From: Pseudaquabacterium terrae
Lineage (GTDB): Bacteria > Pseudomonadota > Gammaproteobacteria > Burkholderiales > Burkholderiaceae_C
DNA: 64,000 nt
Assembly (NCBI RefSeq): GCF_013266755.1
Contig: NZ_JABRWJ010000003.1
Coordinates: 620,001 to 684,000 of the forward strand
Direction: 5' to 3'
Of this stretch, positions 44,425 through 63,576 are shown piece after piece; position 1 is the stretch's first letter, and each line of letters opens with the position of its first letter. The notes under the pieces were generated by a model. That model ran no database searches. It had not been told where the DNA came from and saw only the letters and a list, made by a program, of their open reading frames with translations. Both the position numbers and the translations under genes were made by a program.

Positions 44425-45375
44425 TTAGACGCCTGGCAGTGCCAGCGCGTCGCGCACGGCCAGCCCGAACTGGCGCTGCGCCTGGCGCGCGGCGGTGATG
44501 CCACCGGCCATCACGATGAAGCCATGGGCCAGGCCGTGCCACTCGACCAGTTGCACAGGAGTGCCAGCAGCGAGCAGCGCATCGGCGAATGCCACGCCTT
44601 CGTCGCGCAGCGGGTCGTGCCCGGCCAGCACCAGCAGCGTCGGCGGCAGGCCGGCGAGCGAGCGCGCCAGCAGCGGCGCGCCGCGGAAATCGGCGGCGCG
44701 GCCGCTCGCACCGAACGCATGGGCGCTGAAGTGCGCCATCGTGCGCAGGGTCAGCGTCGGGCCGGCCGCGTGCCGCGCGCGCGACGGGTAGTCGCCGTCG
44801 TGCCCGCCCGCGGCCGGCGGGTACAGCAGCGCCTGCAAGCGAATCGCCGGAAACCCCGCATCGCGCGCCAGCAGCGCGACCGTGCTCGCCAGCACCGCGC
44901 CCGCGCTGTCGCCGGCCACCGCCAGCCGCGCCGGGTCGGCGCCGAGCGAGCGCGCATGTTCGGCCGCCCAGCCGAGCGCGGCCCAGGCGTCGTCGGCCGC
45001 CGCCGGGAAGGCATGCTCGGGCGCCAGCCGGTACTCGACCGAGACCACCACCGCGCCGCTGTCTTCGCAGAGCTGGCGGCATACGTTGTCGTAGGCCGCG
45101 ATGTCGCCGAGCATGTAGCCGCCGCCGTGGTAGTAGACGACGATGCCGTGCGGGCCGGCAGCGCGGGGCGTGTACACGCGCAGCGGGATCGCCGGCAGCG
45201 CGCCGGCCGCCGGCACCGCATGGTCGGCAACGCCGACGTCGGCCGGTGGGCGGTCGGCGGCCGCACAGATCTGGCGATAGAGGTCGCGGCTGGCCGGCAG
45301 CGGCAGGTCGCACAGGTCGGGCATGCCGGCGGCGTGGGCCGCCTTCATCATCGCGGCGAGTTGCAGGTCGAGCAT
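44425..45375 (-). CDS. Alpha/beta hydrolase, hormone-sensitive-lipase family esterase
   Basis: A 316-residue hydrolase with the oxyanion motif YYHGGGYMLGD near residue 80, nucleophile Ser in AVAGDSAGAVLAS near residue 155, acid in LAGHDPLRDEG and His in HGLAHGFIVM, the complete triad of the HSL esterase group. No signal peptide. It is the last gene of the eight-gene minus-strand cluster whose other enzymes oxidise an aromatic-type alcohol and aldehyde, so an aryl ester substrate is likely by context. It starts 22 bases after the RND gene stop and has aggagat before the ATG at 45375. Confidence 0.9.
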   Translation of the reverse strand: MLDLQLAAMMKAAHAAGMPDLCDLPLPASRDLYRQICAAADRPPADVGVADHAVPAAGALPAIPLRVYTPRAAGPHGIVVYYHGGGYMLGDIAAYDNVCRQLCEDSGAVVVSVEYRLAPEHAFPAAADDAWAALGWAAEHARSLGADPARLAVAGDSAGAVLASTVALLARDAGFPAIRLQALLYPPAAGGHDGDYPSRARHAAGPTLTLRTMAHFSAHAFGASGRAADFRGAPLLARSLAGLPPTLLVLAGHDPLRDEGVAFADALLAAGTPVQLVEWHGLAHGFIVMAGGITAARQAQRQFGLAVRDALALPGV

Positions 45376-45397
45376 GGGAGATCTCCTTCGGGAAGTT

Positions 45398-47803
45398 TCA
45401 GGCGCCGGCGGGCTGCAGCGCCGCGGCGGGTTCGGCCATCGGCCGCAACAGGAAATGCGCCAGCGCCGGCAGCAGCACCAGCGCGCCGACCATGTTCCAG
45501 ACGAACATGAAGGCGAGCAGGATGCCCATGTCGGCCTGGAACTTGATGGGCGAGAAGGCCCAGGTGCCGACGGCCAGCGCGAGCGTGATGCCGGTCAGCA
45601 GCACGACGCGCCCGGTGAACTGCAGCGCGTGCAGGTAGGCGGCGGACAGCGAGTCGCCGGCGCGCAACCGCGCCAGCATCACGCTCAGCACGTACAGCGC
45701 GTAGTCGACGCCGATGCCGACGCCGAGCGCGATCACCGGCAGCGTCGCGACCTTGACGCCCATGCTCAAGGCCACCATCAGCGCCTCGCACAGGATCGAG
45801 GTCAGCACCAGCGGCAGCACCGCGCAGGCCACCGCGCGCCACGAGCGGAAGGTCACGAAGCACAGCACGACGACGGCCCCGTAGACCCACAGCAGCATCT
45901 CGCGCATCGCCTGCTGCACGACGATGTTCGTCGCCGCGGCGATGCCGGCCGATCCGGCGGCCAGCATGAAGCGCGTATCGCCACGTTTTTCAGACGTTAT
46001 GAACGCCTCCGCCTCGCCGACCACCCGCGCCAGCGTCTCGGCCTTGTGATCCTTCAGGTAGACGTAGAGCGACAGGAACGAGCAGCCCTGGTTGAACAGC
46101 TCACGCGGCGCGCGCGTCTGCACGCCGCCGAGCGCCGCCGCATTGGGGATCAGCTCGAACCACTTCAGGTTGCCCTCGTTGTAGCCGACCATCGCCAGCT
46201 TCGACAGCGCGGCCATCGAGTGCGTCGCCTCGACCCCCGGCAGCTGCTCGAGCCGCCAGGCCAGCCGGTCGACCTGCGCCAGCGTGTCGTAGCGCGTGCA
46301 CTGGTCCTCGGGCGTCGCGACCATCACCACCAGGATGTCGGCGCTGGCCGCGTAGTGGCGCGTCAGGTAGTCGTTGTCGCGGTTGTAGCGCGAGTCGGCG
46401 CGCAGCTCGGGCGCGCCGGGGTCGAGGTCGCCGACCTGCAGCTGCAGGCTGGCGACGTAGCCGGCGCCGGCCAGCAGCGCGCCGGCCGCGATCGCGGCGA
46501 GCGCCGGCCCGCGCTGCGTGAAGCGATCGAGCTGGCGCCACAGCCCGGTCGGCGCCGCGCCGGCCGCTTCGGCGCGCAGGCTGCGTTCCGCGGCGCGCCG
46601 GCCGACGCCCAGGTACGACAGCAGCACCGGCAGCAGCACCAGGTTCGTGAACACCAGCACCGCGACGCCGATGCTGGCAACCGCGGCCAGGTCCTGGATC
46701 GCCTCGATGCGGATCAGCGCCAGCACCGCGAAGCCGACCGCATCGCACAGCAGGGCAGTCAGGCCGGCCACGAACAGGCGCCGGAACGTGTAGCGCGCGG
46801 CGACCACGCGGTGCGTGCCGCGGCCGACGTCCTGCATGATGCCGTTCATCTTCTGCGCGCCATGGCTCATGCCGATCGCGAACACCAGGAACGGCACCAG
46901 CACCGAGTACGGGTCGAGCGCATAGCCGCTGAGCGCGAGCAGGCCGAACTGCCAGACCACCGCGACCAGCGAGCAGGCGACGACCAGCAGCGTCGAGCGC
47001 GCGCAGCGCGTGTAGCCGAACAGCACCGCCGTGCAGATCACCAGCGCGGCGGCGAAGAAGGCCAGCACCTGGCGCATGCCGTCGATCAGGTCGCCCATCA
47101 CCTTCGCAAAGCCGGTGACGTGGATGCGCACGCGGTCGCTCTCGTACTTCGCGCGCAGGGCTTCGATCTGGCGGCCGAGCTCGCCATAGTCGAGCGCCTC
47201 CCCGGTCTTCGGGTGCTTGTCGAGCAGCGGCACGAAGACGATGCTCGACTTGAAGTCGCCGGCAATCAGCTGGCCGATCTCACCCGAGCGCTCGACGTTG
47301 GCGCGCACCTCGGTGAGGGCGCGGGCCGATCCGTCGTAGCTGTCGCCCATCACCGTATTGCCCTCGAGCCCTTCCTCGGTCACCGCGACCCAGCGGGTGT
47401 TGCTGGTCCACAGCGACTTCATGAACGGCCGGTCGACGCCCGGCAGCAGGTAGAGCTCGTCGCTCAGCTGCTGCAGCGTGCGCAGGTAGTCCTTGTCGAA
47501 GATCGACTCGCCCGTCGTCTCGACGGCGATGCGCAAGGCATTGCCCTGCCCCGCCAGATTCCCCTGGTTCGCCAGATAGTTCGCGATGTACGCGTGCTGG
47601 ACGGGAATGGTCTTCTCGAAGCTCGCGTTGAGCTGCAGCTTCGTCGCCTGCCAGCCGAACAGCGCGCTCAGCACCAGGCACAGCGCCAGCACCCACGGCC
47701 GGTGGTTGAACAGCAGCCGCTCGGCGGGCGAGCCCGAGGCGGCATCGAAGTCTTCGAGGCGGGCGACGACGGGCTGGTCGTCGAGCGTGGAGGAGGCGTG
47801 CAT
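45398..47803 (-). CDS. RND/MMPL-family membrane transporter
   Basis: An 801-residue protein of the RND superfamily with two repeated halves: one TM near residue 35, a periplasmic loop, then six TMs, and the same again. Typical pieces are VPFLVFAIGMSHGAQKMN and, in the second half, LGVGIGVDYALYVLSVM. It is the short type without adaptor proteins, related to predicted lipid and hydrophobic-compound exporters or importers. DUF1302, DUF1329 and a YCF48-like protein are encoded just upstream, a set I recognise from gene clusters for hydrophobic aromatic or terpenoid/steroid compounds. Transport direction unknown. Confidence 0.9.
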   Translation of the reverse strand: MHASSTLDDQPVVARLEDFDAASGSPAERLLFNHRPWVLALCLVLSALFGWQATKLQLNASFEKTIPVQHAYIANYLANQGNLAGQGNALRIAVETTGESIFDKDYLRTLQQLSDELYLLPGVDRPFMKSLWTSNTRWVAVTEEGLEGNTVMGDSYDGSARALTEVRANVERSGEIGQLIAGDFKSSIVFVPLLDKHPKTGEALDYGELGRQIEALRAKYESDRVRIHVTGFAKVMGDLIDGMRQVLAFFAAALVICTAVLFGYTRCARSTLLVVACSLVAVVWQFGLLALSGYALDPYSVLVPFLVFAIGMSHGAQKMNGIMQDVGRGTHRVVAARYTFRRLFVAGLTALLCDAVGFAVLALIRIEAIQDLAAVASIGVAVLVFTNLVLLPVLLSYLGVGRRAAERSLRAEAAGAAPTGLWRQLDRFTQRGPALAAIAAGALLAGAGYVASLQLQVGDLDPGAPELRADSRYNRDNDYLTRHYAASADILVVMVATPEDQCTRYDTLAQVDRLAWRLEQLPGVEATHSMAALSKLAMVGYNEGNLKWFELIPNAAALGGVQTRAPRELFNQGCSFLSLYVYLKDHKAETLARVVGEAEAFITSEKRGDTRFMLAAGSAGIAAATNIVVQQAMREMLLWVYGAVVVLCFVTFRSWRAVACAVLPLVLTSILCEALMVALSMGVKVATLPVIALGVGIGVDYALYVLSVMLARLRAGDSLSAAYLHALQFTGRVVLLTGITLALAVGTWAFSPIKFQADMGILLAFMFVWNMVGALVLLPALAHFLLRPMAEPAAALQPAGA

Positions 47804-47835
47804 CGTGGCGGGTGGTGAGGAGCGTTCGGGGGTGT

Positions 47836-48894
47836 TCAGCGAGCGCTCGGAGGCGTTGAGGGCGCGCTCTGGCGGCGCAGGCCGCGCAGGCTGCTGAGCA
47901 CGAGGTGGCCGTCGCCGGTGACGGCGAGGCCGGTGGCCGGCAAGGCGGCGGCGGCCGGCTGCTTGTGGAACTGCAGGCCGTCGTCGCGGCTGATCAGCAG
48001 GTCGCCGCTCTGGCCGAGCAGCGCCAGCGTGCCGGGCGCGACCTCGACGCCGGCGCTGATCGACACCGGCACGCCGCTGTCGATGGCCTGCCAGCTCGCG
48101 CCGCCGTCGGCGGAGCGGAAGACGCGGCCACGCAGGCCGTACGCGACCAGCGTGCCGGAGCGCGCGGCGACGAGGCCGAACCAGCTGCCCTTGTACGGCG
48201 AGGCCAGCGCGCTGAAAGTCCCGCCGGCGTCCGCCGACTTCAGCAGCAGCCCCTGCTCACCGGCGATCACCCACTGGCCGCCGGCCCAGCGCACCGCGTA
48301 CAGGTGCAGGCTCTTCGGGTTCGGCAGCCGGCCGACCAGCGGCGTCCAGTGCGCGCCGCCGTCGCTGGTGGCGAAGGCGATGCCGTAGGCGCCGACCGCG
48401 ACGCCGTTCTGCGCATCGGCGAAGTCGACGTCGAAGAACGGCTTGTCCGGGCCCTCGTCGACGAAGTGCGCGGCCAGCTTCTGCGCGCGCTCGTCGCCGG
48501 AGCGCGCGGCGTCGGCGATGCGCGCGGCCGCGCTGATGCCGTCGAGCTGGCGCACCCAGCGTTCGCCGCCGTCTTCCGTCTTCAGAATCACGCCGAGGTG
48601 GCCGACGGCCCAGCCGGTGCGCTCGTCGACGAAGCGCAGCGCGGTCAGCGTGGCCTGCACCGGCACAGCCGCCTGCCGCCAGCGCTGGCCGTCGTCGTCC
48701 GACAAGAGCACGATGCCACGTTCGCCGGCGGCGACCAGCCGCCGCCCGGCGCGCGCGACGGTGAGCATCGCGGCACCCGCGGCTTTCGGTGTCTGAATCG
48801 AAGCCTGTTGCAGCACTTCAGGCGGCGCAGCTGCGACACCGCACGCAGCCGCGGCTGCCGCGAACAAGAGAGTGCGCAAGACGGTCTTGGCCAA
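47836..48894 (-). CDS. YCF48/BNR-repeat periplasmic protein
   Basis: About 352 residues. A signal-like N-terminus (RTLLFAAAAAACGVAAAPP) is followed by repeated beta-propeller blades with the pattern of YCF48/photosystem-II-assembly-like proteins: SDDDGQRW, KTEDGGERWVRQL, ATSDGGAHWTPLV, KSADAGGTFSAL and RSADGGASWQAI. It probably works in the periplasm with the RND transporter and the DUF1302/DUF1329 pair. No photosynthetic role is implied. The start is uncertain: I chose a TTG at 48894 that gives a clean signal peptide. A GTG at about 48977 would place the start inside the neighbouring repeat. Confidence 0.8.
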   Translation of the reverse strand: MAKTVLRTLLFAAAAAACGVAAAPPEVLQQASIQTPKAAGAAMLTVARAGRRLVAAGERGIVLLSDDDGQRWRQAAVPVQATLTALRFVDERTGWAVGHLGVILKTEDGGERWVRQLDGISAAARIADAARSGDERAQKLAAHFVDEGPDKPFFDVDFADAQNGVAVGAYGIAFATSDGGAHWTPLVGRLPNPKSLHLYAVRWAGGQWVIAGEQGLLLKSADAGGTFSALASPYKGSWFGLVAARSGTLVAYGLRGRVFRSADGGASWQAIDSGVPVSISAGVEVAPGTLALLGQSGDLLISRDDGLQFHKQPAAAALPATGLAVTGDGHLVLSSLRGLRRQSAPSTPPSAR

Positions 48895-48930
48895 GGCTCG
48901 GCGCGGATCCGGCTCTGCCGGGCCGCTGCC

Positions 48931-48973
48931 GAAGCCCCCTCGGGGGGCAGCGACCGGTAGGGAGCGTGGGGGC
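48931..48973. repeat. GC-rich intergenic repeat, copy 2 (inverted)
   Basis: Read on the minus strand: GCCCCCACGCTC, a short variable part, then CGCTGCCCCCCGAGGGGGC. It matches copy 1 at 31106 over both blocks and has the same GCCCCC-CGA-GGGGGC stem. It separates the DUF1329 gene from the YCF48-like gene. Confidence 0.6.
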
Positions 48974-48977
48974 CTCA

Positions 48978-50345
48978 CTATCTCGTGCCCTCGTTGGCCA
49001 GCTCCTCGGCGCTGAAGAAGGCGCGCGGAATCGGCGCCACCGGCTTGTACTGCACCGGCAGCTCGTTCGACGCCATGTTCAGGTAGTAGGCGCCGGTGTG
49101 CAGGTCGTAGCCGCCCCACATCATGTTGCCGACGACGGCCGGGATGTCCGGTGCCAGCAGCATCAGCGTGTAGTTCGTGCGCCAGAGCTCGCCCTTCGCG
49201 TCCCAGCCGTCGAACATCACGATCTGCCAGGTGTCTTCGTCGAGGTAGTACTTGCGCTTGGGCACGACGTGGCGCTTGCCGTCGGCCAGCGTCGCCTCGA
49301 CCTCCCAGACGCGGTGCAGCTCCCAGCGCACCAGCGCCGGGTTCAGCGTCTTCGGCGTCACCAGGTCGGCCACCTTCGCGCTGGCGGCGCGGTTGTTGTT
49401 GTAGGGGATGTAGAGCTCGCGTTTGCCGACCAGCTTCAGCTGGTGCTTGTCGATCGGCCCGAACAGCATGAACGCTTCGTCGAACAGACCGATGCCCGAG
49501 GTCACCGAGTCCGGCGTGTCATAGGCCACCGACGGCGCCTTGCGCACGCGGCGCTGGCCGACCAGGTACTGCCACAGCCCGCGCGGCTGGCTGGCGTTCA
49601 GGTTGTCGTGCGCGAGGATCGCCTCGCCGGCCTTCGAGCCCGGCTCGGTGACCGCGAACTTGCCGAGCTGGTAGTAGCCGTCGAACTTCTCGATCGAGCC
49701 GTCGGGGTCGTAGTACGGCTTGCGCAGGCTCTGCACGCCGCCCGAGGCCAGCGCGCGCCGGCCGTCTGCCGTGACGACCCACACCCGCACCGGCGCCTGC
49801 ACGTTGCTGCCGGTCCAGGCCAGGCGATGGTTCTGCAGCAGCTCGCCGCCGTCCTTCGGGATCGGGAACGGCGTGCCGCCGTACGCGTTCTCGGTGCCGT
49901 GGCCGCCGTCGACGAGCTTGGCGCGCGTCGCATTGCGCAGCGTGTTGTCGTAGACCCACTGCGGCGCCGCGGCGCTGCGGTGCGTCGGATAGACGTCGAT
50001 GCGGAAGTCGGGGTACTTCTTCATCAGCGCCTTCACGCCGTCGCTCAACTTCGCGGCGTGCTGGTCCATGCTCTTCGCGTCGATCGAGAACAGCGGCTTC
50101 TCGGCGGCGTACGGGTCGGGCCGCGGGTCGCCGCTCTTGTAGCCGGCGGGTGCCCTGGTCAGGCCACCGTCCCACGCCGGAATGCTGCCGTCCTTGTTGG
50201 CGGCGCGTTCGGCGCCGAGCGGTGTCAGCGTGGTCTTCAGCTTGGCGGCCTCGTCGGCGCCGACGGCCGCGTGGGTGCTCAAGGGGGCGATGAACGGGGC
50301 GGCGCAGGCCAGGGCCAGCGCGGCCCGCAGGGGCTTGTTCAGCAT
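48978..50345 (-). CDS. DUF1329 outer-membrane-associated protein
   Basis: A 455-residue secreted protein. The signal peptide ends near THA-AV. The mature part matches DUF1329 (EAAKLKTTLTPLGAERAANK, GSIPAWDGGLT, later DEDTWQIVMFDGWDAKGELW and a C-terminal GGYDLHTGAYYLNMASNE). The fold is thought to be related to LolB/LppX-like lipid carriers. It almost always occurs beside a DUF1302 protein, as here (16 bases after its stop), and both are associated with uptake of hydrophobic substrates. The start is ATG at 50345 with ggagac before it; the longer N-terminus is rejected. Confidence 0.9.
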   Translation of the reverse strand: MLNKPLRAALALACAAPFIAPLSTHAAVGADEAAKLKTTLTPLGAERAANKDGSIPAWDGGLTRAPAGYKSGDPRPDPYAAEKPLFSIDAKSMDQHAAKLSDGVKALMKKYPDFRIDVYPTHRSAAAPQWVYDNTLRNATRAKLVDGGHGTENAYGGTPFPIPKDGGELLQNHRLAWTGSNVQAPVRVWVVTADGRRALASGGVQSLRKPYYDPDGSIEKFDGYYQLGKFAVTEPGSKAGEAILAHDNLNASQPRGLWQYLVGQRRVRKAPSVAYDTPDSVTSGIGLFDEAFMLFGPIDKHQLKLVGKRELYIPYNNNRAASAKVADLVTPKTLNPALVRWELHRVWEVEATLADGKRHVVPKRKYYLDEDTWQIVMFDGWDAKGELWRTNYTLMLLAPDIPAVVGNMMWGGYDLHTGAYYLNMASNELPVQYKPVAPIPRAFFSAEELANEGTR

Positions 50346-50361
50346 CTGGGGTCTCCGAATG

Positions 50362-52098
50362 TCAGAAAGTGCGCGATGCGTTGAAGGCGACGTGGGCACG
50401 GTCCCTCATCGTTTGCGCGAAGCTCAGCTGGCGCGGCGAGCCGGCGCCCGTCACCAGCGTCTCGGTGAAGGTCTTCTCGGCGCCGAAGAAGCCGTTGAAG
50501 GTCAGTGCGACGTTCCAGGCGTTCTGGTACTTGCCCTTCACGCCGATGCTGTAGTCGCCGGCCTTCGAGGCACCGCCGGCGAAGTTGCCGATCGCCGACG
50601 AACGGCCGCCGAAGTTCCAGCCCAGGCCGATCGGCAGCGAGAGGTCCAGCGCCGGCAGCACCTGGAAGTACTGCGGCTCGAACAGCAGCCGCAGCGCGAA
50701 GGCGCCCTTGGTCGTGTTCGGATCCAGACCGCCCAAGCCGGCGCTGCGGCCGCCGGGGCCGATCGCGAAGATGTCCTTCGTGATCGCGAGCCGCCGGTTG
50801 TAGGCCAGCTCGGCCAGCAGCGCGCCGCCGCCCCACAGCGGGCCGGGCTGCAGCACGTAGATGCCGGAGACCTGCAGGTGGCCGGTGCGGCCGACGGCAT
50901 AACACGGATCGCCGCTGGAGCCGCCGCACGACAGGATCGGGCCGAGGCCGAGCACCGCGGGGTCGCTGTTGAGCGGCGCGTTGCTGCGCACCGAGCCTTC
51001 GACGGCCCAGTTCAGCTGGCCGACCGACGAGGTGACGCTGGCGCCGACGGTGCGGATGTTGCTCGCGTAGGCCAGGTGCACGTTGCCGCCGACGAAGTCG
51101 AACACCGGCGCCGCCGGCGTCTTGTCGTGGTACTGCGCGGCGTAGACGCCGAACTCGAAATCGCTGCCGGTGGGGCTCCAGCGCAGCTGCACGCCGCCCT
51201 GCCCGCTGTCCTTCGGGCGCAGGTCGTGGCGCTGGTCATAGGCCAGCACGATCGGCGTGCCATCCGGCGCATTGCCGAAGCCGACGGTGCCGGTGCCCAC
51301 GTAGTCCTGGTTCGAGAAGTAGCTGCCGACGCCGGGGATCTTGCTCGGCCGCCACTTGAGCTGGTAGTACGCACCGAGCGACAGGCCTTCGGCCAACTGC
51401 AGCGAGCCGGAGAGCTGCTCGACCGGCAGCAGCACCTCCTTGAACTGCCAGCCCGGCACCGAGACGATCTTGGCGATGTCGACCGGGCCCTGCGCGTGGG
51501 CGATGCCGTTCTGGCCGAAGAACAGGCTTTCGCCCCACTGCAGCGTGTGCTTGCCCACGCGCAGCGTGCCCTTCATCGCGCCGAGCTCGCCCTTGAGATA
51601 CACGAAGGCATCGAGCAGCTCACCGCCGCGGCCGTGCTGGCGTCGCGTGGCCGGCAGGAACTCGTTCGAGGCCTGGCCGGGAAAGTTGTTCGAGGTCGAC
51701 ACCGTCGGCCCCAGCGGCATGCCGCCGGCCAGCAGCGGCGTGCCGGCGTAGTCGCTGCGGCCGAGATAGGCGCTGTCGCGCCAGGCGGTGCCGCTCAGGC
51801 GGCCGCCGAACGACTTCGTCGTCACGTCCAGCTCGCCCAGCAGGTCCCAGCGGTTCGAGACCAGGCCCTTGTTGAAGTTGTGGTCACCATCGTCCTCGTT
51901 CGAGATGCCCGGGTCGTTCGCGACGTCGAGCCGCGTCAATGCCGGTGACGCGTTCTTCAGGCGATAGGCTGCGCTGTATTTCGGCGTCAGGTCGGCGCGG
52001 ATTTTCAGATCGGGGTTGCCCGAATCGATGTCGAAGGCCTGGGCGGCGGGCAGCGCGAGCGCTGCCGCCGCCGCCAGCAGGCTGCGGCGGTGGTCCAT
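50362..52098 (-). CDS. DUF1302 beta-barrel-like outer-membrane protein
   Basis: A 578-residue secreted protein. The signal peptide ends near AQA-FD, and the mature part begins NPDLKIRADLTPKYSAAYRL, a first-strand pattern of DUF1302. It has many alternating-hydrophobic segments and ends with Phe (HVAFNASRTF), as expected for an outer-membrane barrel. Family members accompany degradation of aromatic and steroid-like compounds and may act as a pore for them. It is followed by its usual DUF1329 partner. The start has ggagac before the ATG at 52098. The exact function is not established for the family. Confidence 0.88.
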   Translation of the reverse strand: MDHRRSLLAAAAALALPAAQAFDIDSGNPDLKIRADLTPKYSAAYRLKNASPALTRLDVANDPGISNEDDGDHNFNKGLVSNRWDLLGELDVTTKSFGGRLSGTAWRDSAYLGRSDYAGTPLLAGGMPLGPTVSTSNNFPGQASNEFLPATRRQHGRGGELLDAFVYLKGELGAMKGTLRVGKHTLQWGESLFFGQNGIAHAQGPVDIAKIVSVPGWQFKEVLLPVEQLSGSLQLAEGLSLGAYYQLKWRPSKIPGVGSYFSNQDYVGTGTVGFGNAPDGTPIVLAYDQRHDLRPKDSGQGGVQLRWSPTGSDFEFGVYAAQYHDKTPAAPVFDFVGGNVHLAYASNIRTVGASVTSSVGQLNWAVEGSVRSNAPLNSDPAVLGLGPILSCGGSSGDPCYAVGRTGHLQVSGIYVLQPGPLWGGGALLAELAYNRRLAITKDIFAIGPGGRSAGLGGLDPNTTKGAFALRLLFEPQYFQVLPALDLSLPIGLGWNFGGRSSAIGNFAGGASKAGDYSIGVKGKYQNAWNVALTFNGFFGAEKTFTETLVTGAGSPRQLSFAQTMRDRAHVAFNASRTF

Positions 52099-52133
52099 CG
52101 GTTTGTCTCCTGTTTGTTGTGAGTCGGAAGGGA

Positions 52134-52901
52134 TCAGAGGTAGGTCGACGCCAGCCCGCCGTCGACGGGCAGGTTGACGCCGCTGACCCAGCGCGCGGCG
52201 TCGGAGCAGAGGAAGGCGATCACCGGCGCCACCTCGTCGGCCAGCGCCGGGCGCTTCATGCGGTGCGCGTCGCGCTCGACGCGGCCGGCGCCGAGCATCG
52301 TCACGAAGTCACCGAGGATCGGCGTGAACACCGGCCCCGGCGCGACGCAGTTCATGCGCACGCCACGCTCCAGGAACCAGCGCTGCGACTGCGTGACCGA
52401 CCAGACGATCAGCGCTTCCTTGAAGTACTGGTAGCAGGTGTCCTGCGGCACCGGGTGCTTGGCCAGCCAGGCCAGCCCGGCCTCGAAGTGCGGCGTCTCG
52501 GCGAGCGCCTTGTGCGTATCGACGCGCTGCGGCCATTCGGCGCCGAGGATCGACGCGATGTTGACGATGCTGCCGCCGGCGGGCATCCGTTCCAGCAGCT
52601 TCTGGCAGAGGTGGCGCAGGCCGAGGTAGTTGACGCGGGCGACTGAGTCGGCGTTCGCGGTGCCCGGCACGCCGGCGATGTTGCACAGCGCATCGATGCG
52701 CTCGGGCAGCTGGCGCACGGCGGCGTCGATCGCCGCCTGCTCCGACAGGTCGGCCTTGACGAAGCCGTCGAGCGTCAGCATCGGCTCGTTGCGGTCGACG
52801 CCGATCACGCGCGCGCCCTGGAAGCGCAGCAGCCGCGCGGTCTCGGCGCCGATGCCCGAGCTGACGCCGGTGATGACGATGGTCTTGCCTTGCAGGCTCA
52901 T
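52134..52901 (-). CDS. SDR alcohol dehydrogenase, coniferyl-alcohol-dehydrogenase (CalA)-like
   Basis: A 255-residue short-chain dehydrogenase. It has TGVSSGIGAETARLL at the N-terminus, acidic Asp of NAD preference in VIGVDRNEP, CNIAGVPG in place of NNAG, Ser in NIASILGAEWP and the active-site YQYFK. The long insert between Ser and Tyr (DTHKALAETPHFEAGLAWLA) and the overall length match coniferyl-alcohol dehydrogenase, which oxidises aryl-allyl alcohols. The encoded partner aldehyde dehydrogenase lies two genes upstream in the operon. The specific substrate is inference. Confidence 0.82.
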   Translation of the reverse strand: MSLQGKTIVITGVSSGIGAETARLLRFQGARVIGVDRNEPMLTLDGFVKADLSEQAAIDAAVRQLPERIDALCNIAGVPGTANADSVARVNYLGLRHLCQKLLERMPAGGSIVNIASILGAEWPQRVDTHKALAETPHFEAGLAWLAKHPVPQDTCYQYFKEALIVWSVTQSQRWFLERGVRMNCVAPGPVFTPILGDFVTMLGAGRVERDAHRMKRPALADEVAPVIAFLCSDAARWVSGVNLPVDGGLASTYL

Positions 52902-52927
52902 GGGGATCTCCGGAGTTATTGAAAAAT

Positions 52928-54067
52928 TCAGGGCAGCAGCTCGAAGCGGCCATCGGCGATGCGCAGCATCACGACGCCGCGGCCGTCGAAGCCGCTGTGG
53001 TCGGTGGGCGAGAAATTGACGACGCCGTGCGCGAGCGCGATCTCCTTCTCGCTCTCCAGCGCATCACGCAGCGCGCGCCGGAACGCCGCGGTGCCGGGCG
53101 CGGAGCCCTTCAGCGCCGGCGGCAGCGCGCGCTGCAGCAGCAGCAGCGCATCCCAGGCGTGGGCGCCGAACTGCGTGCGCGTGTTCGCGCCGTGCTGCTT
53201 CTCGAAGCCGCTGACGTAAGTCAGCGCAACGGGCCGCACCGGGCTCGCCGCCGGCAGCTGCTCGGCAACGAGCATCGGCCCGGCCGGCAGCACCGTGCCG
53301 TTCATGCGCGGGCCGCCGACGCGCACCAGGTCCGGCGACGCTGCGCCGTGCGTCTGGTAGATCGGCCCGCTCCAGCCGCGTTCGCGCAGCGTGATCTGCG
53401 GCATCGCCGCGGCCGAGCCGGCGCCGACGATCAGCACCGCGTCGGGCTTTGCGGCGACCACCTTCAGCGCCTGCGCCGTGATCGAGGTGTCGATCGGCGC
53501 GAAACGCTCGGTGGCCACGACCGTCAGCCCGGCCGCCTTGGCCGACGCGCCGAAGGCCTGCAGCCACATCTCGCCGTAACCCTCGTTCCAGCCGAGGAAG
53601 GCGACCTTGCGCACCTTATCGGCGACCATGCGGCGCGCCAATGCATCGGACATCAGCGACACCGGCTGCGCGAGCGCGAAGGTCCAGCTGTCCGGGCCCG
53701 CGGCCAGCGGCAGCGGCGCGAACGCGAGCTGCACCGTCTTCGCCTCGGTCGCGACCTGCGCCACCGCCAGGCCCTGCGGCACGCCTGAGGGCCCGAGCAG
53801 CACATCGACCTGATGCTCGGTGACGAAGCGGCGCGCGTTGCGTGTCGCGGCCGTCGGGTCCGACGCATCGTCGAGCACGACCAGCCGGACCTTCTCGCCG
53901 CCGATGCGCTCGGGCCACAGCGCGAGCGATGCCTTCTGCGGCAGCCCCAGCGACGACAGCGGGCCGGTCAGCGACAGGTTGACGCCGATCGTGATGTCGG
54001 CCTGCGCGCCGCCGGCGGCGGCGATGAGGGCCAGCGCGGCGGCCAGGCGGGTGAATGGGCGATTCAT
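52928..54067 (-). CDS. Liv-type ABC substrate-binding protein, orphan
   Basis: A 379-residue secreted protein of the Peripla_BP_6 group. The signal peptide ends near AQA-DI; the mature part has ITIGVNLSLTGPLSSLG and later ARRFVTEHQVDVLLGPSG. It binds a small molecule in the periplasm. The operon has no permease or ATPase gene, so it must share membrane components encoded elsewhere or act as a scavenger. It lies between the aldehyde dehydrogenase and the SDR gene with gaps of 22 and 26 bases and has aggagat before its ATG. Confidence 0.88.
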   Translation of the reverse strand: MNRPFTRLAAALALIAAAGGAQADITIGVNLSLTGPLSSLGLPQKASLALWPERIGGEKVRLVVLDDASDPTAATRNARRFVTEHQVDVLLGPSGVPQGLAVAQVATEAKTVQLAFAPLPLAAGPDSWTFALAQPVSLMSDALARRMVADKVRKVAFLGWNEGYGEMWLQAFGASAKAAGLTVVATERFAPIDTSITAQALKVVAAKPDAVLIVGAGSAAAMPQITLRERGWSGPIYQTHGAASPDLVRVGGPRMNGTVLPAGPMLVAEQLPAASPVRPVALTYVSGFEKQHGANTRTQFGAHAWDALLLLQRALPPALKGSAPGTAAFRRALRDALESEKEIALAHGVVNFSPTDHSGFDGRGVVMLRIADGRFELLP

Positions 54068-54089
54068 GGAATCTCCTGTGCGGTGGCCG

Positions 54090-55565
54090 TCAGAACGGGA
54101 ATTGCGGCGGCGTGTCCTTCACGGTCAGCCACTGCCAGGCCGTGAAGCACTCCCAGTCGCCGGGGCCGCCGTGCGAGTGGCCGTTGCCGGCGATGCCGGG
54201 GCCGCCGAAGGGATTGACGGCGTCGTCGTTCACCGTCTGGTCGTTGATGTGCACCATGCCGGCCTTGAGCCGGTTGCCGATCGCCAGCGCGCGGCCGACC
54301 GACTTCGAGATCACCGCCGCGGCCAGGCCGCCATGGCCGTGGTTGGCGATCGCCACCGCCTCGTCGTCGGTGCTGAAGGTCGCGAGGTTGACCACCGGGC
54401 CGAAGGTCTCGTCGTCGAAGCTCGGCATGCCGGGCTTCACGCCGGTGAGCACGGTGGGCTTGTAGAAGAGCCCCTCGTAGCTGCCGCCGGCCAGCAGCGT
54501 GGCGCCGGCCATCACGCTGGCCATCACGGTGGCATGCACGCGGTCGCGCTGGCGTTGATCGATCAGCGGCCCGAGCGCGACCTGGCCGGTGGCGCCATCG
54601 CCGACCGGCAGACGATCCGCCTTGGCGACCAGCCGCTGGATCAGCGCCGGCGCGATCGCCTCGTGCACCAGCACGCGGTTCGACGCCATGCAGATCTGGC
54701 CCTGGTGCAGCCAGGCGCCCCAGGCGACGTTCGACGCCGCGAGATCGAGGTCGGCGTCGCTGGCCATGTCGTCGAGCACGATCAGCGCATTGCTGCCGCC
54801 GAGCTCGAGCGAGACCTTCTTCAGGTGCCTGCCGGCCAGCTCGCCGATGCGCCGGCCGACACCGGCCGAGCCGGTGAAGGAGATCATCGCGACGTTCGCA
54901 TCGCCGACCAGCGCCTCGCCGACATCGGCGCCGCCGGGCAGCACGTGCAGCAGACCAGCCGGCAGCCCGGCCTGTTCGAAGATGCGCGCGATCAGCAGGC
55001 CGCCGCTCACCGGCGTGCGCGGGTCGGGCTTGATGATCACCGCGTTGCCGGTGGCCAGCGCCGGCGCGACGACGCGCAAGGTCAGGATCAGCGGGAAGTT
55101 GAACGGCGAGATCACGCCAACCACGCCCAAGGGCACGCGGCGCGCGATCGACATCCGGCCCGGCCCGCTGGGCAGCACCTGGCCCTGCGCCTGCATCGGC
55201 ATCGCGGCGGCCAGCTGGCAGAACATCACGGCCTCGCGCAGCTCGTGCTGGCCCTTCGGCAGGATCGCGCCGGTTTCGCGCGTCACGTACAGCGCCAGCT
55301 CGTCGAAGTGCTGCTGGAACAGCGCCGCGGCGCGCTGGAACACCGCCGCACGCTCGCGCGGACCGAGCGCGGCCCACGCGGGCTGCGCGGCGGCGGCTGC
55401 AGCCGCGGCGGTCGCGACATCGGCCGCCACCGCACGGCCGGTGCGCGCCAGCACCTGGCCGGTCGCCGGCTCGATCACATCGGCGGCTTGCGAGGCGGCG
55501 CGCCAGCCGTTGCTGAAGAGGTTGTCGCGCCACAGCGCGTGGTCGAGAAACGGAGGTGTGCTCAT
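54090..55565 (-). CDS. Aromatic aldehyde dehydrogenase (benzaldehyde/vanillin dehydrogenase group)
   Basis: A 491-residue NAD(P)-dependent dehydrogenase. It has [28 protein letters not shown], the general base in [15 protein letters not shown] and catalytic Cys at about residue 292 in [12 protein letters not shown]. The opening [20 protein letters not shown] and the C-terminal [13 protein letters not shown] are typical of aromatic aldehyde dehydrogenases. It is the first gene of the minus-strand operon. I chose the ATG at 55565, about 23 bases after the predicted sigma-54 start point. It would convert the SDR's aldehyde product to an aromatic acid. Confidence 0.9.
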
Positions 55566-55598
55566 CGGCGGTCTCGGGGTTGGTCTGGCCTGCCTTGC

Positions 55599-55612
55599 GC
55601 AACGCCCGTGCC
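55599..55612 (-). promoter_or_regulatory. Sigma-54 (-24/-12) promoter of the aromatic operon
   Basis: On the minus strand the sequence is GGCACGGGCGTTGC: GG and GC separated by exactly ten bases, matching the GGCAC-N5-TTGC consensus at every key position. It lies 34 bases upstream of the aldehyde dehydrogenase start and faces away from the sigma-54 activator gene, as expected for its target. Confidence 0.78.
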
Positions 55613-55746
55613 GCGGCGCCGTGCCGGGCTGCGGTTGAGGGCCAACCACCACGCGCCGTCACCGAGGGAAAGACACCCACCGACTCCGGACTTTCCCGGG
55701 GGTCGATTGCTGCGCTGCAGCTTCGGGTTCACCCGAAGGCTTGGCG

Positions 55747-55799
55747 TTCATCAACTGAGAACAAAATCGCCCGCCGCTCGGCGATCGATTCATCAAATC
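55747..55799. promoter_or_regulatory. Two candidate upstream activator sites for the XylR-type regulator
   Basis: TTCATCAA occurs at 55747-55754 (inside GTTCATCAACTGAGAAC) and 55789-55796 (inside GATTCATCAAATC), 42 bases or four helical turns apart. On the other strand each reads TTGATGAA, similar to XylR/DmpR binding words. They lie 135-190 bases upstream of the sigma-54 promoter and just before the regulator gene, so they could serve both activation and autoregulation. Confidence 0.45.
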
Positions 55800-55807
55800 A
55801 GAAACTC

Positions 55808-57601
55808 ATGACCAAGGCCGACTCCCGCATCTCGCTCGCCGAGGTGGCCCGCCAGACCGGCGCGATGCTGCGCCGCGGCGACAGCGCGCACTACCGCGAC
55901 GGCCTGCCGCCGAGCCTGGCCGACCTGACCGAATCGCTGTTCTTCTCGCCCGGCGACGGCCGCATCTGGCTCAACGACCAACGCATGCTGCTGTGGCACT
56001 GCTCGGCGATGGGTCACCTGCGGCGCGAGCTGATCGACACGCTGGGCCTGGAGCGTGCACGCGGCCTGCTGACGCGCGCCGGCTACGTCTCCGGCGCGCG
56101 CGACGCGCAACTGGTGCGCGAGCGCTGGCCCGACGGCGACGCCGCGAGCGTCTTCATGGCCGGCACGCGGCTGCATGCGCTCGAAGGCGTCGTCAAGGTC
56201 ACGCCGCTGGCCTTCGACTTCGACATCGACCGCGGCACCTACGAAGGCGAGTTCCTGTGGGAGCACTCGAGCGAGGACGACGAGCACATCGCCGCCTACG
56301 GCATCGGCACCGAAGCCGCGTGCTGGTCGCAGGTGGGCTACGCCACCGGCTACGTGACCAGCCTGTTCGGCCAGCTCGTCGTCTTCCGCGAAGTCGAGTG
56401 CCGCTCGATGGGCGCCAGCGTCTGCCGCGTGATCGGCCGCCATGCCGCGGCCTGGGGCGACGTCAGCGAGGACCTGCGCTACCTGCAGGCGCGCGACTTC
56501 CGCAGCCTTGCCGAGGCGCCGGCGGCGCACGCGGCGGTCGCCACGCCGGTGCTCGACCCAACGCCTGAAGTGAGCGGCGCGCGGCACGAGATCGTCGGCG
56601 CGTCGTCGGCCTTCAACTCGGCCTGCCACCAGCTCGACCGCGTCGCGCGCACGCAGGCAACGGTGCTCTTCACCGGCGAGTCGGGCGTCGGCAAGGAGGC
56701 CTTCGCGCGAAGGCTGCACCGCATCAGCGCGCGCGCCGACAAACCCTTCGTCGCCGTCAACTGCGCGGCGATTCCGGAGACGCTGATCGAGTCGGAGCTG
56801 TTCGGCGTCGAGCGCGGCGCCTTCACCGGCGCCAGCAGCTCGCGCCCGGGCCGCTTCGAACGCGCCGACGGCGGCACGCTGTTCCTCGACGAGGTCGGCA
56901 CGCTGTCGCTGCCCGGCCAGGGCAAGCTGCTGCGCGTGCTGCAGGAGGGCGAGGTCGAGCGTGTGGGCGGCACGCGCACGCTGACGGTGGATGTGCGCGT
57001 CGTCGCCGCGACCAACGTCGACCTGCAGGCCGAGGTGCGTGCCGGGCGCTTTCGCGAGGACCTCTACTACCGCCTGAACGTCTACCCGATGCACCTGCCG
57101 CCGCTGCGCGAGCGGCGCGACGACGTGCCGCTGCTGATGAACCATTTCCTGCGCCGCGAGTCGGCGCGCCACGGCCGCTCGCCCACCGGCTTCACGCCGC
57201 GTGCGGTGCGCGCGCTGCTGCACTACGCCTACCCCGGCAACATCCGCGAGCTGCAGAACCTGATCGAGCGCGGCGTGATCTCGGCCGACGACGGCGCGCC
57301 GATCGACGTGCGCCACCTGTTCCGCCGCGAGCAGCTGTCGGACGAGACGCTGCTGGCGATCGGCGCCAGCGGCGCGCTGATGCCCAGCCACGACCCGGGC
57401 CGCGTGCCCAACCTGCTGCAGCACCTGCAGCAGACGCTGGGCGCCGACACGCTGGCGCTGGGCGAGCTGGAAGCCCGCCTGCTGCGCGAGGCCGTGGCCG
57501 CGGCCGACGGCAACCTGGCGGCCGCGGCGCGGCAGCTCGGGCTGACGCGGGCGCAGCTGGCGTATCGGCTGGAGAAGGCGCCGGGCCGCGCCGACGCGTG
57601 A
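55808..57601 (+). CDS. Sigma-54-dependent activator, XylR/DmpR type (XylR_N-V4R-AAA+-HTH)
   Basis: A 597-residue activator. The effector-binding XylR_N domain covers about residues 25-135 ([20 protein letters not shown]), the V4R domain about 145-205 with the Cys-containing [18 protein letters not shown], and a linker leads to the AAA+ domain. That has Walker A GESGVGKE near 289, the sigma-54 contact loop GAFTGA near 337 and [12 protein letters not shown]. The Fis-type HTH is at the end ([20 protein letters not shown]). Aromatic effectors relieve inhibition by the N-terminus. It is divergent from the operon with the consensus sigma-54 promoter and is its obvious regulator. It ends one base before a convergent gene. 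Confidence 0.94.
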
Positions 57602-58318
57602 TCAGCTTGTGCGCTGCGTGAGCGCCCGCTGTTCGGCGCTCTCGCGCCGCAGCGCTTCCTCGAAGCTCGCCAGCCCGATCTGATTGAGCACGCGCTTGTA
57701 GCGCGCGGCCACGTCCGCATCCAGGGCGGCGAGACGCTGCGCGATGGCTCGCGATGCCGTGCCCAGCGTGTCATCGTCGACCAGCTTCCACACCAGGCCC
57801 CAACCCAGCGCCTGCTCCGCAGAGAACTCCTCGCCGAGCAGCATCAGGGCCTTGGCGCGGGCCAGGCCGGCGGCCGCCGGCAAGGTGGCGACCAGGCCGC
57901 CGGTGACGAAGACACCGAGCGAGGCTTCGGGCAACTTCAAGCGAGCGCTGCGCGCGGCGATCACGATGTCGGCGTCGAGCATCCATTCGAGCCCCGCCCC
58001 GAGCACCCAGCCGTGCACGGCGGCAACCACCGGCTTGCGACAGCCGACGATGGCCGCGGCCACGCGTTGCACACCCTCGAGCTCCGCCTCGGTGGGTGCT
58101 GCACTGACATCGCGACCGGCGCAGAAGGCGCGGCCCGCGCCCCGCAGCAGCACGGCCTTGACGGCAGCATCGGCATCGGCGTGCTCGAGCGCGCGCCACA
58201 GGTCCTGCGCCAGCGTGGCCGTGATCGCGTTCAGCTTGCGCGGCCGGTTCAGCGTCAGGGTCAGCACGCCGTCGTCGGAGAGCTCGCGCAGCAGCGGCGC
58301 TTCGGTCTCGAGGCTCAT
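57602..58318 (-). CDS. Enoyl-CoA hydratase/isomerase family protein
   Basis: A 238-residue crotonase-fold protein. It has LTLNRPRKLNAITATLA near residue 20, the oxyanion-hole segment GRAFCAGRDVSA near 65 and AAVHGWVLGAGLEWMLDADI near 100. At the usual catalytic positions GLEW and LPEASLGVFV are present (one Glu retained, the second variable), so it may be a hydratase, isomerase or related enzyme. It is 3 bases after the stop of the Bug-type gene and convergent with the activator gene. CoA-ester processing in a short operon is likely; substrate unknown. Confidence 0.86.
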   Translation of the reverse strand: MSLETEAPLLRELSDDGVLTLTLNRPRKLNAITATLAQDLWRALEHADADAAVKAVLLRGAGRAFCAGRDVSAAPTEAELEGVQRVAAAIVGCRKPVVAAVHGWVLGAGLEWMLDADIVIAARSARLKLPEASLGVFVTGGLVATLPAAAGLARAKALMLLGEEFSAEQALGWGLVWKLVDDDTLGTASRAIAQRLAALDADVAARYKRVLNQIGLASFEEALRRESAEQRALTQRTS

Positions 58319-58321
58319 CGT

Positions 58322-59302
58322 TCAATCCACCAGGAAACCCGAGGCCTTGATCACCGGGCCCCACTTGGCCAGCTCGTCGGCGATGAGCCTGCCCAGCTCG
58401 TCCGGCGTGGCCGGGTCGCTGTGCATGCCGATCTTCGCCAGCCCCGCCTTGATGTCGTTCATCGCCAGCACGCGGGCGAGGGCTGTCTGCAGCGGCTGCA
58501 GCGCGGCGCGCGGCGTGGCGGGCGGCGCGAACAGACCCACCCACTCGAGCGTGTCGAACTGGCGCAGGCCCATCTCGGCCAGCGTCGGTACGCCCGGCAG
58601 CAGCTCCGAGCGGCGCGCGCCGTTGACTGCCAGCACGCGCAACTTGCCGGCCTGGTGGTGCGCGGCGACGTCGGCGATCGGCAGGATGCCCGCCGCGATC
58701 TGGCCGCCCAGCAGGTCCTGCACCAGCGGCGCGCCGCCGCGGTAGGGCACCGGCAGCATGTCGGCATTCGCGTCCTTGCCGAGTCGATAGCCGATGAACT
58801 GCGAGATGCTGCCGGGTGCCGGCACGCCGAAGCTGCCGTCCTTGCGGTTCGCACGCGCCAGGTCGATCCATTGCGCGACGGTCGTGGCCGGCATCGCCGA
58901 CGGCACGGCGATCGCCTCGTAGAAGCTGCTGACGCGGCCGACCGGCTGGAAGTCCTTCACCGGGTCATACCGCACCACTTTGAAGGTCAGCGGAATCATC
59001 ACCATCATGTGCGTGTTGGCGATCAGCAGCGTGCGGCCGTCGGCCGGCGCGTTCTTGACATGCTCCGCGGCGATCGCGCCACCGGCCCCCGGCCGGTTGT
59101 CGACGATGACCGTCGTGTTCAGCTCATCCTTCAGTTTGTCCGCGAGCATGCGGGCCACCGCATCGGCCGACCCGCCGGCCGGATAGCCGACGATCAGCTT
59201 CAGCGGCTCCTGGCGTGTCGCGCCCTGCGCCTGCAGCGCGGGCGCCGCCAGCACGAACGTCGAGGTGGCGAGGGAAGCGAGCAGCAGGCGACGATGAATC
59301 AC
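58322..59302 (-). CDS. Bug-type (tripartite tricarboxylate transporter) substrate-binding protein
   Basis: A 326-residue secreted protein with a signal peptide ending near LQA-QG. Bug motifs are clear: LKLIVGYPAGGSADAVARM, VDNRPGAGGAIAAEHVK, a central LPVPYRGGAPLVQDLLGGQI and VNGARRSELLPGVPTLAEMG. The start is GTG at 59302. It forms a two-gene unit with the enoyl-CoA hydratase-like gene and is divergent from the dimethylformamidase-like gene, so it may bind that enzyme's substrate, for example an amide or carboxylate. No membrane components are nearby. Confidence 0.9.
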   Translation of the reverse strand: MIHRRLLLASLATSTFVLAAPALQAQGATRQEPLKLIVGYPAGGSADAVARMLADKLKDELNTTVIVDNRPGAGGAIAAEHVKNAPADGRTLLIANTHMMVMIPLTFKVVRYDPVKDFQPVGRVSSFYEAIAVPSAMPATTVAQWIDLARANRKDGSFGVPAPGSISQFIGYRLGKDANADMLPVPYRGGAPLVQDLLGGQIAAGILPIADVAAHHQAGKLRVLAVNGARRSELLPGVPTLAEMGLRQFDTLEWVGLFAPPATPRAALQPLQTALARVLAMNDIKAGLAKIGMHSDPATPDELGRLIADELAKWGPVIKASGFLVD

Positions 59303-61699: not shown

Positions 61700-62601
61700 A
61701 AGCCCGGCATGGCGCTCAAGCGCTGCAGCAGCGCCGCGACGAAGGCCTTCACCCGCGCCGGGCGGTAGACGCCCGGCGGCATCGCCACCTGCACCGGAAT
61801 CGATTCCAGCCACCACGCCGGCAGCACGCGCTTCAGCCGCCCCGCGGCCAGGTCGGCATGGCACAGCCACGGCGATGCAGCGCCGATGCCCGCGCCGTTC
61901 AGGATGGCGCGGTAGCTCGCCAGCAGGTTGTCGGTCTGCAGCGGCGCATCCACGCTCACCGTGCGCAGCCGCCCTGCCCGGTCGAACAGGCGGATATCGC
62001 CCAACACGTGCGGCAGCAGGCCGACGAAGGGCGCACGCGCCAGCGTGGAGATCGTCACCGGCCCGATGCGCGTGAGCAGCTCGGGCGCGGCAATGAGCAT
62101 GCGCTCCATCGATCCGAGGCGCCGGACCACCAGCCCCGGATCGAGCACCGGCCCGACGAACAGCCAGCACTCCGCGCCCGAACCGAGCAGGTCGACGGCG
62201 CGGTCGGTCAGCGTGAGCTCGATGCGCAGCGCCGGGTATTGCGCACGCAGGTCGGTGATCGCGTCGGTGAGGAAGGACACGCCCCAGCCCGAGGGGCCGA
62301 TCACGCGCAAGGTGCCCTCCGGCCGGCTCTGAGCACCCGTGATGCGCTCGGCCAGCCCGGACCAGCGCTCCGTCAGCTCGCGCGCCTGCGCCAGCAGCGA
62401 GCGGCCTTCGTCGGTCAACGTGAAGCGGGTCGTGGTCCGCGTCGCGAGCCGGCAGCCGAGCATGCGCTCCAGATCCACGAGCCGGCGGCTGACGGTGGGC
62501 TGCGTCGTCTCGAGCACGCGCGCGGCCTTGCTCAGCGATCCGGTCTCGCCGATCTTGACGAAGGTGTCCAGCAGTTCGAGCCGATCGTGGGCGCGTTTCA
62601 T
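61657..62601 (-). CDS. LysR-family transcriptional regulator
   Basis: A 314-residue regulator. The N-terminal HTH is FVKIGETGSLSKAARVLETT then QPTVSRRLVDLERMLGCRL, followed by the LysR substrate-binding domain (ALRIELTLTDRAVDLLGSGA and similar). The group resembles the LysR proteins that act on neighbouring oxidoreductase genes. I placed the start at the ATG at 62601; a GTG six codons earlier (62619) is possible. Its 3' end overlaps the dimethylformamidase-like gene tail to tail, an unusual arrangement that may cause transcriptional interference. Confidence 0.87.
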   Translation of the reverse strand: MKRAHDRLELLDTFVKIGETGSLSKAARVLETTQPTVSRRLVDLERMLGCRLATRTTTRFTLTDEGRSLLAQARELTERWSGLAERITGAQSRPEGTLRVIGPSGWGVSFLTDAITDLRAQYPALRIELTLTDRAVDLLGSGAECWLFVGPVLDPGLVVRRLGSMERMLIAAPELLTRIGPVTISTLARAPFVGLLPHVLGDIRLFDRAGRLRTVSVDAPLQTDNLLASYRAILNGAGIGAASPWLCHADLAAGRLKRVLPAWWLESIPVQVAMPPGVYRPARVKAFVAALLQRLSAMPGFQPADERGIVLRTR

Positions 62602-62628
62602 TCCCTCGACGTATAGCACTTCATGCGT

Positions 62629-63546: not shown

Positions 63547-63576
63547 CGCGGGCCGCCGTCCAGCCGATTGTTGCCA

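Follow-up and report, generated by a model that had tools for sequence, protein, structure and literature searches.

The window analysed here is a 64,000-nucleotide stretch of Pseudaquabacterium terrae (contig NZ_JABRWJ010000003.1, positions 620,001 to 684,000), from a genome of 8.04 Mb in 56 contigs; its G+C content, measured in 2-kb steps, is 67.5–74.4%. At 44425–55565 it holds eight minus-strand genes that face a divergent sigma-54-dependent activator. An earlier sequence-only reading had named these genes as one operon; domain searches with Pfam and NCBIfam confirm them at the stated place, where they are tightly packed. In operon order, followed by the activator, they are:

54090–55565, minus: aldehyde dehydrogenase (ALDH), first gene of the operon; PF00171, E 2.6e-146, searched as the longer open reading frame (ORF) 54090–55652
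52928–54067, minus: Peripla_BP_6 solute-binding protein; PF13458, E 3.2e-41
52134–52901, minus: short-chain alcohol dehydrogenase (SDR) of the CalA subfamily; NF009092, 417.6 bits, cut-off 242
50362–52098, minus: DUF1302 outer-membrane beta-barrel, AmeA-like; PF06980, E 1.8e-112
48978–50345, minus: DUF1329 periplasmic LolA-like carrier, AmeB-like; PF07044, E 3.9e-126
47836 to about 48894, minus: YCF48/BNR-repeat protein, AmeC-like, probably periplasmic; PF14870, E 5.6e-23
45398–47803, minus: MMPL (putatively HAE3) RND-type inner-membrane transporter, AmeD-like; PF03176, E 8.7e-19
44425–45375, minus: HSL-family esterase, last gene of the operon; PF07859 (Abhydrolase_3), E 4.3e-65
55808–57601, plus: XylR/DmpR-type sigma-54-dependent activator; PF06505, PF02830, PF00158, PF02954

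The gaps between the genes are 16–35 bases, with about 80 ahead of the YCF48-like gene, whose start is uncertain (GTG at 48978 and TTG at 48894 are the candidates). Gaps this short make it likely that the eight genes form one operon. A minus-strand ORF opposite the regulator, 55793–57424, was taken as spurious since it has no Pfam match.

We consider it probable that the operon serves the inducible catabolism of a phenolic aryl-CH2OH alcohol and its esters, and that its AmeABCD-type envelope cassette handles the same substrate class. Hydroxybenzyl, vanillyl or hydroxycinnamyl/coniferyl alcohols and their esters are the candidates. In the cytoplasm the esterase would release the alcohol, which the CalA-type SDR would oxidize to the aldehyde; the ALDH would convert the aldehyde to the acid. 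The co-transcribed barrel, LolA-like carrier, YCF48 adaptor and putative HAE3 pump would carry substrates of this class, poorly soluble or toxic as they are, from one membrane of the envelope to the other.

What identifies the enzymes? The catalytic motifs of all three are intact. The ALDH carries GQICM and LELGG; its best relatives in the Protein Data Bank (PDB) include 4-hydroxybenzaldehyde, benzaldehyde, salicylaldehyde and vanillin dehydrogenases, and its homologues in L140 (63% identical) and L143 (54%), two of the related loci described below, are annotated as benzaldehyde dehydrogenase. The SDR lies far above the cut-off of NF009092, the model named for the coniferyl-alcohol dehydrogenase CalA; the name is a family label, under which coniferyl oxidation is a predicted activity. 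It is the only copy over that cut-off in the host genome, and the family is patchy: a single one of 369 genomes of the class, the host itself, holds it at E ≤ 1e-50, with at most seven candidates scored per genome. The esterase carries HGGGY and GDSAG and matches solved HSL esterases with E down to 1.4e-63; judged by eye it has no evident signal peptide, and it is predicted to be cytoplasmic.

A gene set with similar enzymes is already known. The are genes of Acinetobacter, which serve the use of benzyl esters, comprise an esterase, a zinc-type (MDR) alcohol dehydrogenase and an aldehyde dehydrogenase under a sigma-54 activator; to our knowledge they include no Ame-type cassette. The window likewise has esterase, alcohol dehydrogenase and aldehyde dehydrogenase genes beside a sigma-54 activator, a likeness of gene content only. 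Its alcohol dehydrogenase is an SDR and not an MDR, so we do not file it as an are operon.

What would switch the operon on? The activator carries XylR_N, V4R, sigma-54 AAA+ and Fis helix-turn-helix domains together with the GAFTGA motif, and its sensor domain aligns with those of PoxR (E 5.1e-55), CapR/DmpR and MopR. Its His123 and Trp151 match His106 and Trp134 of MopR, the residues that hold the phenol hydroxyl, and the Cys-Glu-Cys-Cys zinc ligands are all kept (residue positions and roles from PMC10715001 and PMC7264223; here and below, citations refer to passages of the papers named). XylR, the toluene/xylene sensor, carries Tyr in place of the anchoring His (PMC7264223). Among homologous regulators that cover the sensor, the His is kept in 22 of 23, the Trp in 21 and the four zinc ligands in all 23, two of which (L042 and L108) are one sequence. 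These residues point to a phenolic effector for the predicted sensor, though they are too widely common to name one. Such an effector would bind the DmpR-like activator and enable it, at two candidate upstream sites, to activate the predicted sigma-54 promoter:

55598–55613, minus: predicted sigma-54 −24/−12 promoter; matches the consensus at 10 of 12 positions and lies 32 bases ahead of the ALDH start codon
55781–55796, no strand assigned: candidate XylR/DmpR-type upstream activator site; 12 of 16 positions
55747–55762, no strand assigned: candidate XylR/DmpR-type upstream activator site; 11 of 16 positions, 34 bases from the other

On both strands of the window there are seven −24/−12-like sites scoring at least 10, and 48 scoring at least 9. 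A site scoring 9 to 12 was found in 13 of 14 related upstream pieces, 66–156 bases from the end of the piece, so that 14 of 15 promoter pieces, counting the window too, hold one scoring at least 9. The sole failure, L062, has 11 of the 12 positions but GT for the required GC at −12. Not one of 300 block shuffles equalled the better of the two upstream sites; the other is the weaker match. In four of the 14 pieces (L063, L066, L071 and L091) the best upstream site was equalled by at least 10% of shuffles, and in L065 by 9%. Paired sites of XylR/DmpR factors usually lie 29–42 nt apart and 100–200 nt upstream (PMC6449761). From the promoter-like site and the divergent XylR/DmpR-type activator we conclude that the operon is probably under sigma-54 control, as the sequence-only reading had proposed.

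The four genes that follow the SDR adjoin one another in the order DUF1302, DUF1329, YCF48/COG4447-like and MMPL/HAE3, the order of AmeABCD in Castellaniella defragrans (PMC6394551). The two cassettes share the four families and lie inside catabolic gene groups; we liken them by domains, order and size, the proteins having 605, 451, 316 and 787 residues in AmeABCD and 578, 455, about 350 and 801 in the window. They differ in their company, since AmeABCD is linked to monoterpene genes and the window cassette to a DmpR-type regulator, aryl alcohol and aldehyde enzymes and an esterase. When AmeABCD is deleted, growth on monoterpene hydrocarbons falls and uncoupled cells accumulate more Nile Red; export is the role that the authors propose (PMC6394551). 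The sequence-only reading had described the four envelope proteins as of a function not known in any detail; with this match and the deletion phenotype (PMC6394551), that description is not quite accurate. The link that it had drawn between envelope set and enzymes is supported.

The AlphaFold2 model of the DUF1302 protein is a barrel with a predicted local distance difference test (pLDDT) of 87.2. Foldseek places MOMP, general porins and the alginate exporter AlgE in its top rows. VIA-align places OprD/Occ porins first (BenF-like, OccK2/OpdF, and OpdK with vanillate), at Z 22.7 and a root-mean-square deviation of 3.3–3.4 over 308–322 residues, followed by MOMP (Z 22.0) and AlgE (Z 21.4). Differences this small, on a predicted model, do not choose between uptake and export. 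No FadL-like or TolC-like fold is among the matches listed for DUF1302 by either program, which excludes nothing. The DUF1329 model (pLDDT 94.2) has LolA3 of Porphyromonas gingivalis and solved proteins of the DUF1329/LolA superfamily at the top of its Foldseek matches. The alignments behind these models held 50 of the 70 full-length DUF1302 relatives and 49 of the 69 DUF1329 relatives. The best NCBIfam model for the pump is TIGR00921 (HAE3), at 136.8 bits below its cut-off of 351.9. A profile of pump relatives matches solved HpnN and MmpL3–5, and several of the entries name MmpL as an exporter.

How have such cassettes been read elsewhere? Pseudomonas putida cannot metabolize Tween 20 without its DUF1302 and DUF1329 genes and two partners of these, and mutual contacts are predicted (PMC10866462). 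Like the window, that set (PP_0765, PP_0766, PP_2018 and PP_2019) has a periplasmic protein and a pump besides DUF1302 and DUF1329, but its gene numbers split it over two loci and the passages name no aromatic substrate for it (PMC10866462). A DUF1329/YCF48/MMPL cluster was highly expressed in a benzene degrader and was called putatively involved in benzene transport (PMC13101534). A Delftia DUF1329 mutant was impaired on phenanthrene, as cited in PMC13101534, and the Delftia phenanthrene cluster contains DUF1302 and DUF1329 genes (PMC3110197). In the phenol hydroxylase cluster of Zoogloea oleivorans a sigma-54 regulator stands beside DUF1302 and DUF1329, as in the window, but the cluster has phenol hydroxylase in place of the alcohol and aldehyde enzymes, and YCF48 and MMPL do not appear in the available part of the legend (PMC7012976). 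For Burkholderia sp. 383 a 2019 study predicts that AphR, of the XylR/DmpR type, controls DUF1302, PF07044, COG1033 and COG4447 genes, and suggests that the COG4447, COG1033, PF07044 and DUF1302 proteins may cope with toxic aromatics (PMC6449761). The cassette there lies near aldehyde dehydrogenase and esterase operons, resembling the window, but spread over several adjacent operons with other enzymes; the passages mention no CalA-type SDR or binding protein (PMC6449761). The published reports thus differ on the role and direction of the cassette, and nothing computed here decides between them. Judged from titles, abstract openings and passages, the exact operon was not met among the open-access papers listed.

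Does the arrangement recur in relatives? The loci compared are the best 80 of at least 588 confirmed stretches found with the pump alignment, so the counts describe the nearest relatives only; neighbouring ORFs were called by a simple script, and some of them were given to Pfam and NCBIfam. Six of the 80 keep the order regulator–ALDH–SDR–cassette: a Vitreoscilla metagenome-assembled genome (MAG; L060), Massilia (L062), Polaromonas (L064), Pseudomonas frederiksbergensis (L067), Variovorax (L068) and Pseudomonas brassicacearum (L070). The SDR stands with a divergent regulator in nine. In three more Pseudomonas loci (L063, L065 and L066) the regulator, the SDR and the cassette are retained, and an esterase and a different aldehyde dehydrogenase lie upstream; the latter is MdlD-like, under cut-off and interrupted by the end of the locus. 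An esterase gene follows the pump directly in L060, L061, L068, L082, L088 and L091. An MDR alcohol dehydrogenase takes the place of the SDR in L088 and L091, from Oceanospirillales and Amphritea MAGs, and in L140, from the Azospirillum plasmid pAB510c, all of which keep the ALDH (61–63%), the cassette and the regulator; L088 and L091 are nearer to the Acinetobacter are genes than the window is. In L071 a VanA-type oxygenase takes the position that ALDH and SDR hold elsewhere. An aryl ester-to-alcohol-to-aldehyde-to-acid operon, which had been proposed from the sequence alone, is well supported by comparison: by its recurrence in Pseudomonas, Massilia, Polaromonas and Variovorax, by this swap of alcohol dehydrogenase, by the phenol-anchoring residues of the regulator, and by the hydratase/lyase genes and the caffeate-binder likeness described below.

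Two other loci are recorded as observations on the cassette. In Hydrocarboniphaga effusa AP103 (L077, 5802–20119) its neighbours include a DmpR-type regulator and a protein of the phenol hydroxylase family. In Comamonas sp. 7D-2 (L145, plasmid pBHB) the pump gene has transposases nearby, and the plasmid bears a reductive dehalogenase gene as well; searches with the window proteins detected no DUF1302, DUF1329 or YCF48 at this locus.

Does the pump lineage follow the pathway? We called a locus aryl-linked if a DmpR-type regulator and an ALDH, SDR, MDR or Rieske enzyme stand beside the cassette. All 14 aryl-linked rows of a 106-row pump tree fall within one 17-row clade (support 94). In a maximum-likelihood tree of 42 rows, hand-picked from the 106 with L065 omitted as a near-copy, the 13 aryl-linked rows and L061, L069 and L082 make up one clade (98% SH-aLRT); L061 and L082 end at contig ends, so that their upstream genes are not visible. 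Unlabelled and outside the clade are, for example, L077, L084, L108, L110, L124 and L136, which have the regulator with other or unannotated enzymes, as well as L086. Neither tree contains a Castellaniella or Thauera terpenica locus. The host itself carries three further complete DUF1302–DUF1329–YCF48–MMPL cassettes, four paralogues in one genome; the first pump survey scored the three best candidates per genome, and the fourth pump (L054) was found by a later scan. The other cassettes are:

contig C56, 213432–219946: cassette L040
contig C23, 78744–85207: cassette L041, near ALDH, MaoC and SDR genes
contig C8, 45479–52084: cassette L054, near acyl-CoA dehydrogenase, CoA-transferase and SDR genes

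The pumps of all three lie outside the aryl-linked clade. Pump phylogeny thus appears largely to track the neighbouring aryl-alcohol enzymes, a pattern that is new here, and since the pump lineage largely goes with its neighbours the cassette does not look generic. Together with the four host cassettes this suggests one transporter per substrate class.

The solute-binding protein bears on the substrate. Its gene has no ABC permease alongside in the operon, and a homologue occurs in one of the 80 loci (L060). Residues 23–377 match the PDB entries 3tx6/4f8j/4fb4 (E 4.4e-99) and 3ukj/4eyo/4eyq (E 4.3e-97). Of these, 4FB4 is a Rhodopseudomonas palustris protein solved with caffeic acid (PMC10374108) and 4EYQ is tabulated with caffeic acid (PMC8960963); binding proteins for p-coumarate, ferulate and cinnamate have also been described from R. 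palustris (PMC3223731). By sequence the window protein resembles the aromatic-acid binders, nearest to the caffeate binder and its relatives. A p-hydroxycinnamoyl-CoA hydratase/lyase (PHCH) gene lies within about 4.5 kb downstream of the pump in Massilia L062 (490.7 bits) and P. frederiksbergensis L067 (503.8 bits; cut-off 276), and no PHCH homologue of at least 38% identity was found in the other loci compared (L040 upward). The host has 4-hydroxybenzoate hydroxylase (PobA) over cut-off and a VanA-like oxygenase.

A phenylpropanoid-type substrate had been suggested from the sequence alone. The broader class, phenolic or phenylpropanoid-like, is supported; a phenylpropanoid itself is not proven. 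As a firm assignment it is weakened by the host, in which none of 37 matches exceeds the PHCH cut-off (NF006588), and for that reason we rank a phenolic benzyl alcohol at least level with coniferyl alcohol. We favour a phenolic aryl alcohol and make no choice between the benzyl and cinnamyl types.

Beyond the regulator, the enoyl-CoA hydratase and TctC-type receptor genes at 57602–59302 converge on it and show no sign of membership in the operon. The stretch 59510–63687 holds a gene resembling the large subunit of N,N-dimethylformamidase (PF20254), followed by ORFs of 252 and 354 residues without a Pfam match.

Several observations weigh against an aryl-alcohol operon with its own dedicated cassette. 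The linkage of pump and enzymes is not obligate: Neorhizobium L143 holds regulator, ALDH and SDR without a cassette; L069, whose pump belongs to the aryl-linked clade, shows no such neighbour for 10 kb around; and Herbaspirillum L086, on a short contig with no regulator match, has both an ALDH (49%) and an alcohol dehydrogenase of the MDR type (51%) near its cassette, while its pump falls outside the clade. The anchoring His and Trp are kept in most of the regulators compared, inside and outside the pump clade, and do not single out a substrate. The ALDH is below every NCBIfam cut-off among the matches listed (25 of 44), and the host genome has no PHCH, PcaG or BenA over cut-off. For every enzyme of the operon, finally, we infer the exact substrate. 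The SDR had no match in a PDB search at 1e-20, and a looser search gave as its best solved relative the 3-alpha-hydroxysteroid dehydrogenase/carbonyl reductase 1fjh (E 3.4e-19). Might the operon, then, act on a non-aromatic hydrophobic alcohol, terpenoid or steroid-like, its aryl labels merely inherited from family names? The place of AmeABCD in monoterpene metabolism (PMC6394551) and the two other host cassettes near CoA-type or dehydrogenase catabolic genes agree with this minor rival. Yet the XylR_N/V4R activator keeps the phenol anchors, the ALDH has aryl-aldehyde dehydrogenases as relatives, the binding protein is of the aromatic-acid type and two relatives have PHCH near the operon. We judge a non-aromatic substrate improbable.

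If the phenolic aryl-alcohol operon is accepted, in which direction does its cassette work? The sequence-only reading had proposed a dedicated uptake route that brings a hydrophobic ester or alcohol across the outer membrane. Its linkage of transport set and enzymes stands, and the inward direction is one of two candidates. The esterase has no evident signal peptide, so an intact ester would have to enter the cell. A LolA-like periplasmic carrier and a porin-like barrel near the BenF-like porin and OpdK with vanillate fit with entry, but wherever a direction is stated for a solved MMPL relative it is export, and small aromatic alcohols may cross membranes without a transporter. The cassette could instead be an efflux or tolerance system, as proposed for AmeABCD (PMC6394551): it would clear the membrane of toxic aromatic alcohol, aldehyde or ester, with detoxification by the enzymes of the cytoplasm in parallel. 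The solved HpnN and MmpL3–5 matched by the pump profile, the latter exporters in several entries, are in keeping with this, but the pump clade goes with catabolic enzymes, and the barrel is closest by VIA-align to OprD/Occ-type porins, though the exporter AlgE is nearly equal. The phenotypes of relatives divide in the same way. Cells that have lost AmeABCD tolerate monoterpene hydrocarbons less well and, when uncoupled, accumulate more Nile Red, a transport assay that points to efflux (PMC6394551), and the 2019 regulon study lists the cassette families as possibly coping with toxic aromatics (PMC6449761). The need for the P. putida homologues on Tween 20 (PMC10866462) and the Delftia phenanthrene defect (cited in PMC13101534) are growth phenotypes with no obvious toxicity, and these speak for uptake. 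We place uptake and efflux about level, each at slightly under an even chance.

The cassette families (AmeABCD) and the predicted XylR/DmpR-type control of such genes (in 2019) are already known. The additions made here are the identification of this cassette as AmeABCD-type, the swap of alcohol dehydrogenase family beside a constant ALDH and pump, and the broad match of pump lineage to pathway. A wider proposal is that AmeABCD-type cassettes are a general, RND-powered and substrate-class-specific route for hydrophobic catabolic substrates, chiefly for uptake, in which the paralogue of each pathway evolves with its enzymes and regulator. We offer this tentatively and think it rather doubtful.

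Little is known of how Gram-negative bacteria admit or shut out oily aromatics. In this operon an AmeABCD-type cassette is linked to a single regulator and to a short pathway that lends itself to assay, and across genera its pump subfamily largely goes with that pathway. This makes its direction and specificity directly testable, and the operon may find use in the conversion of lignin aromatics. If the wider proposal were true, nutrients would be entering cells in a new way, through a porin-like barrel and a LolA-like carrier with an RND-family pump as the driving force.

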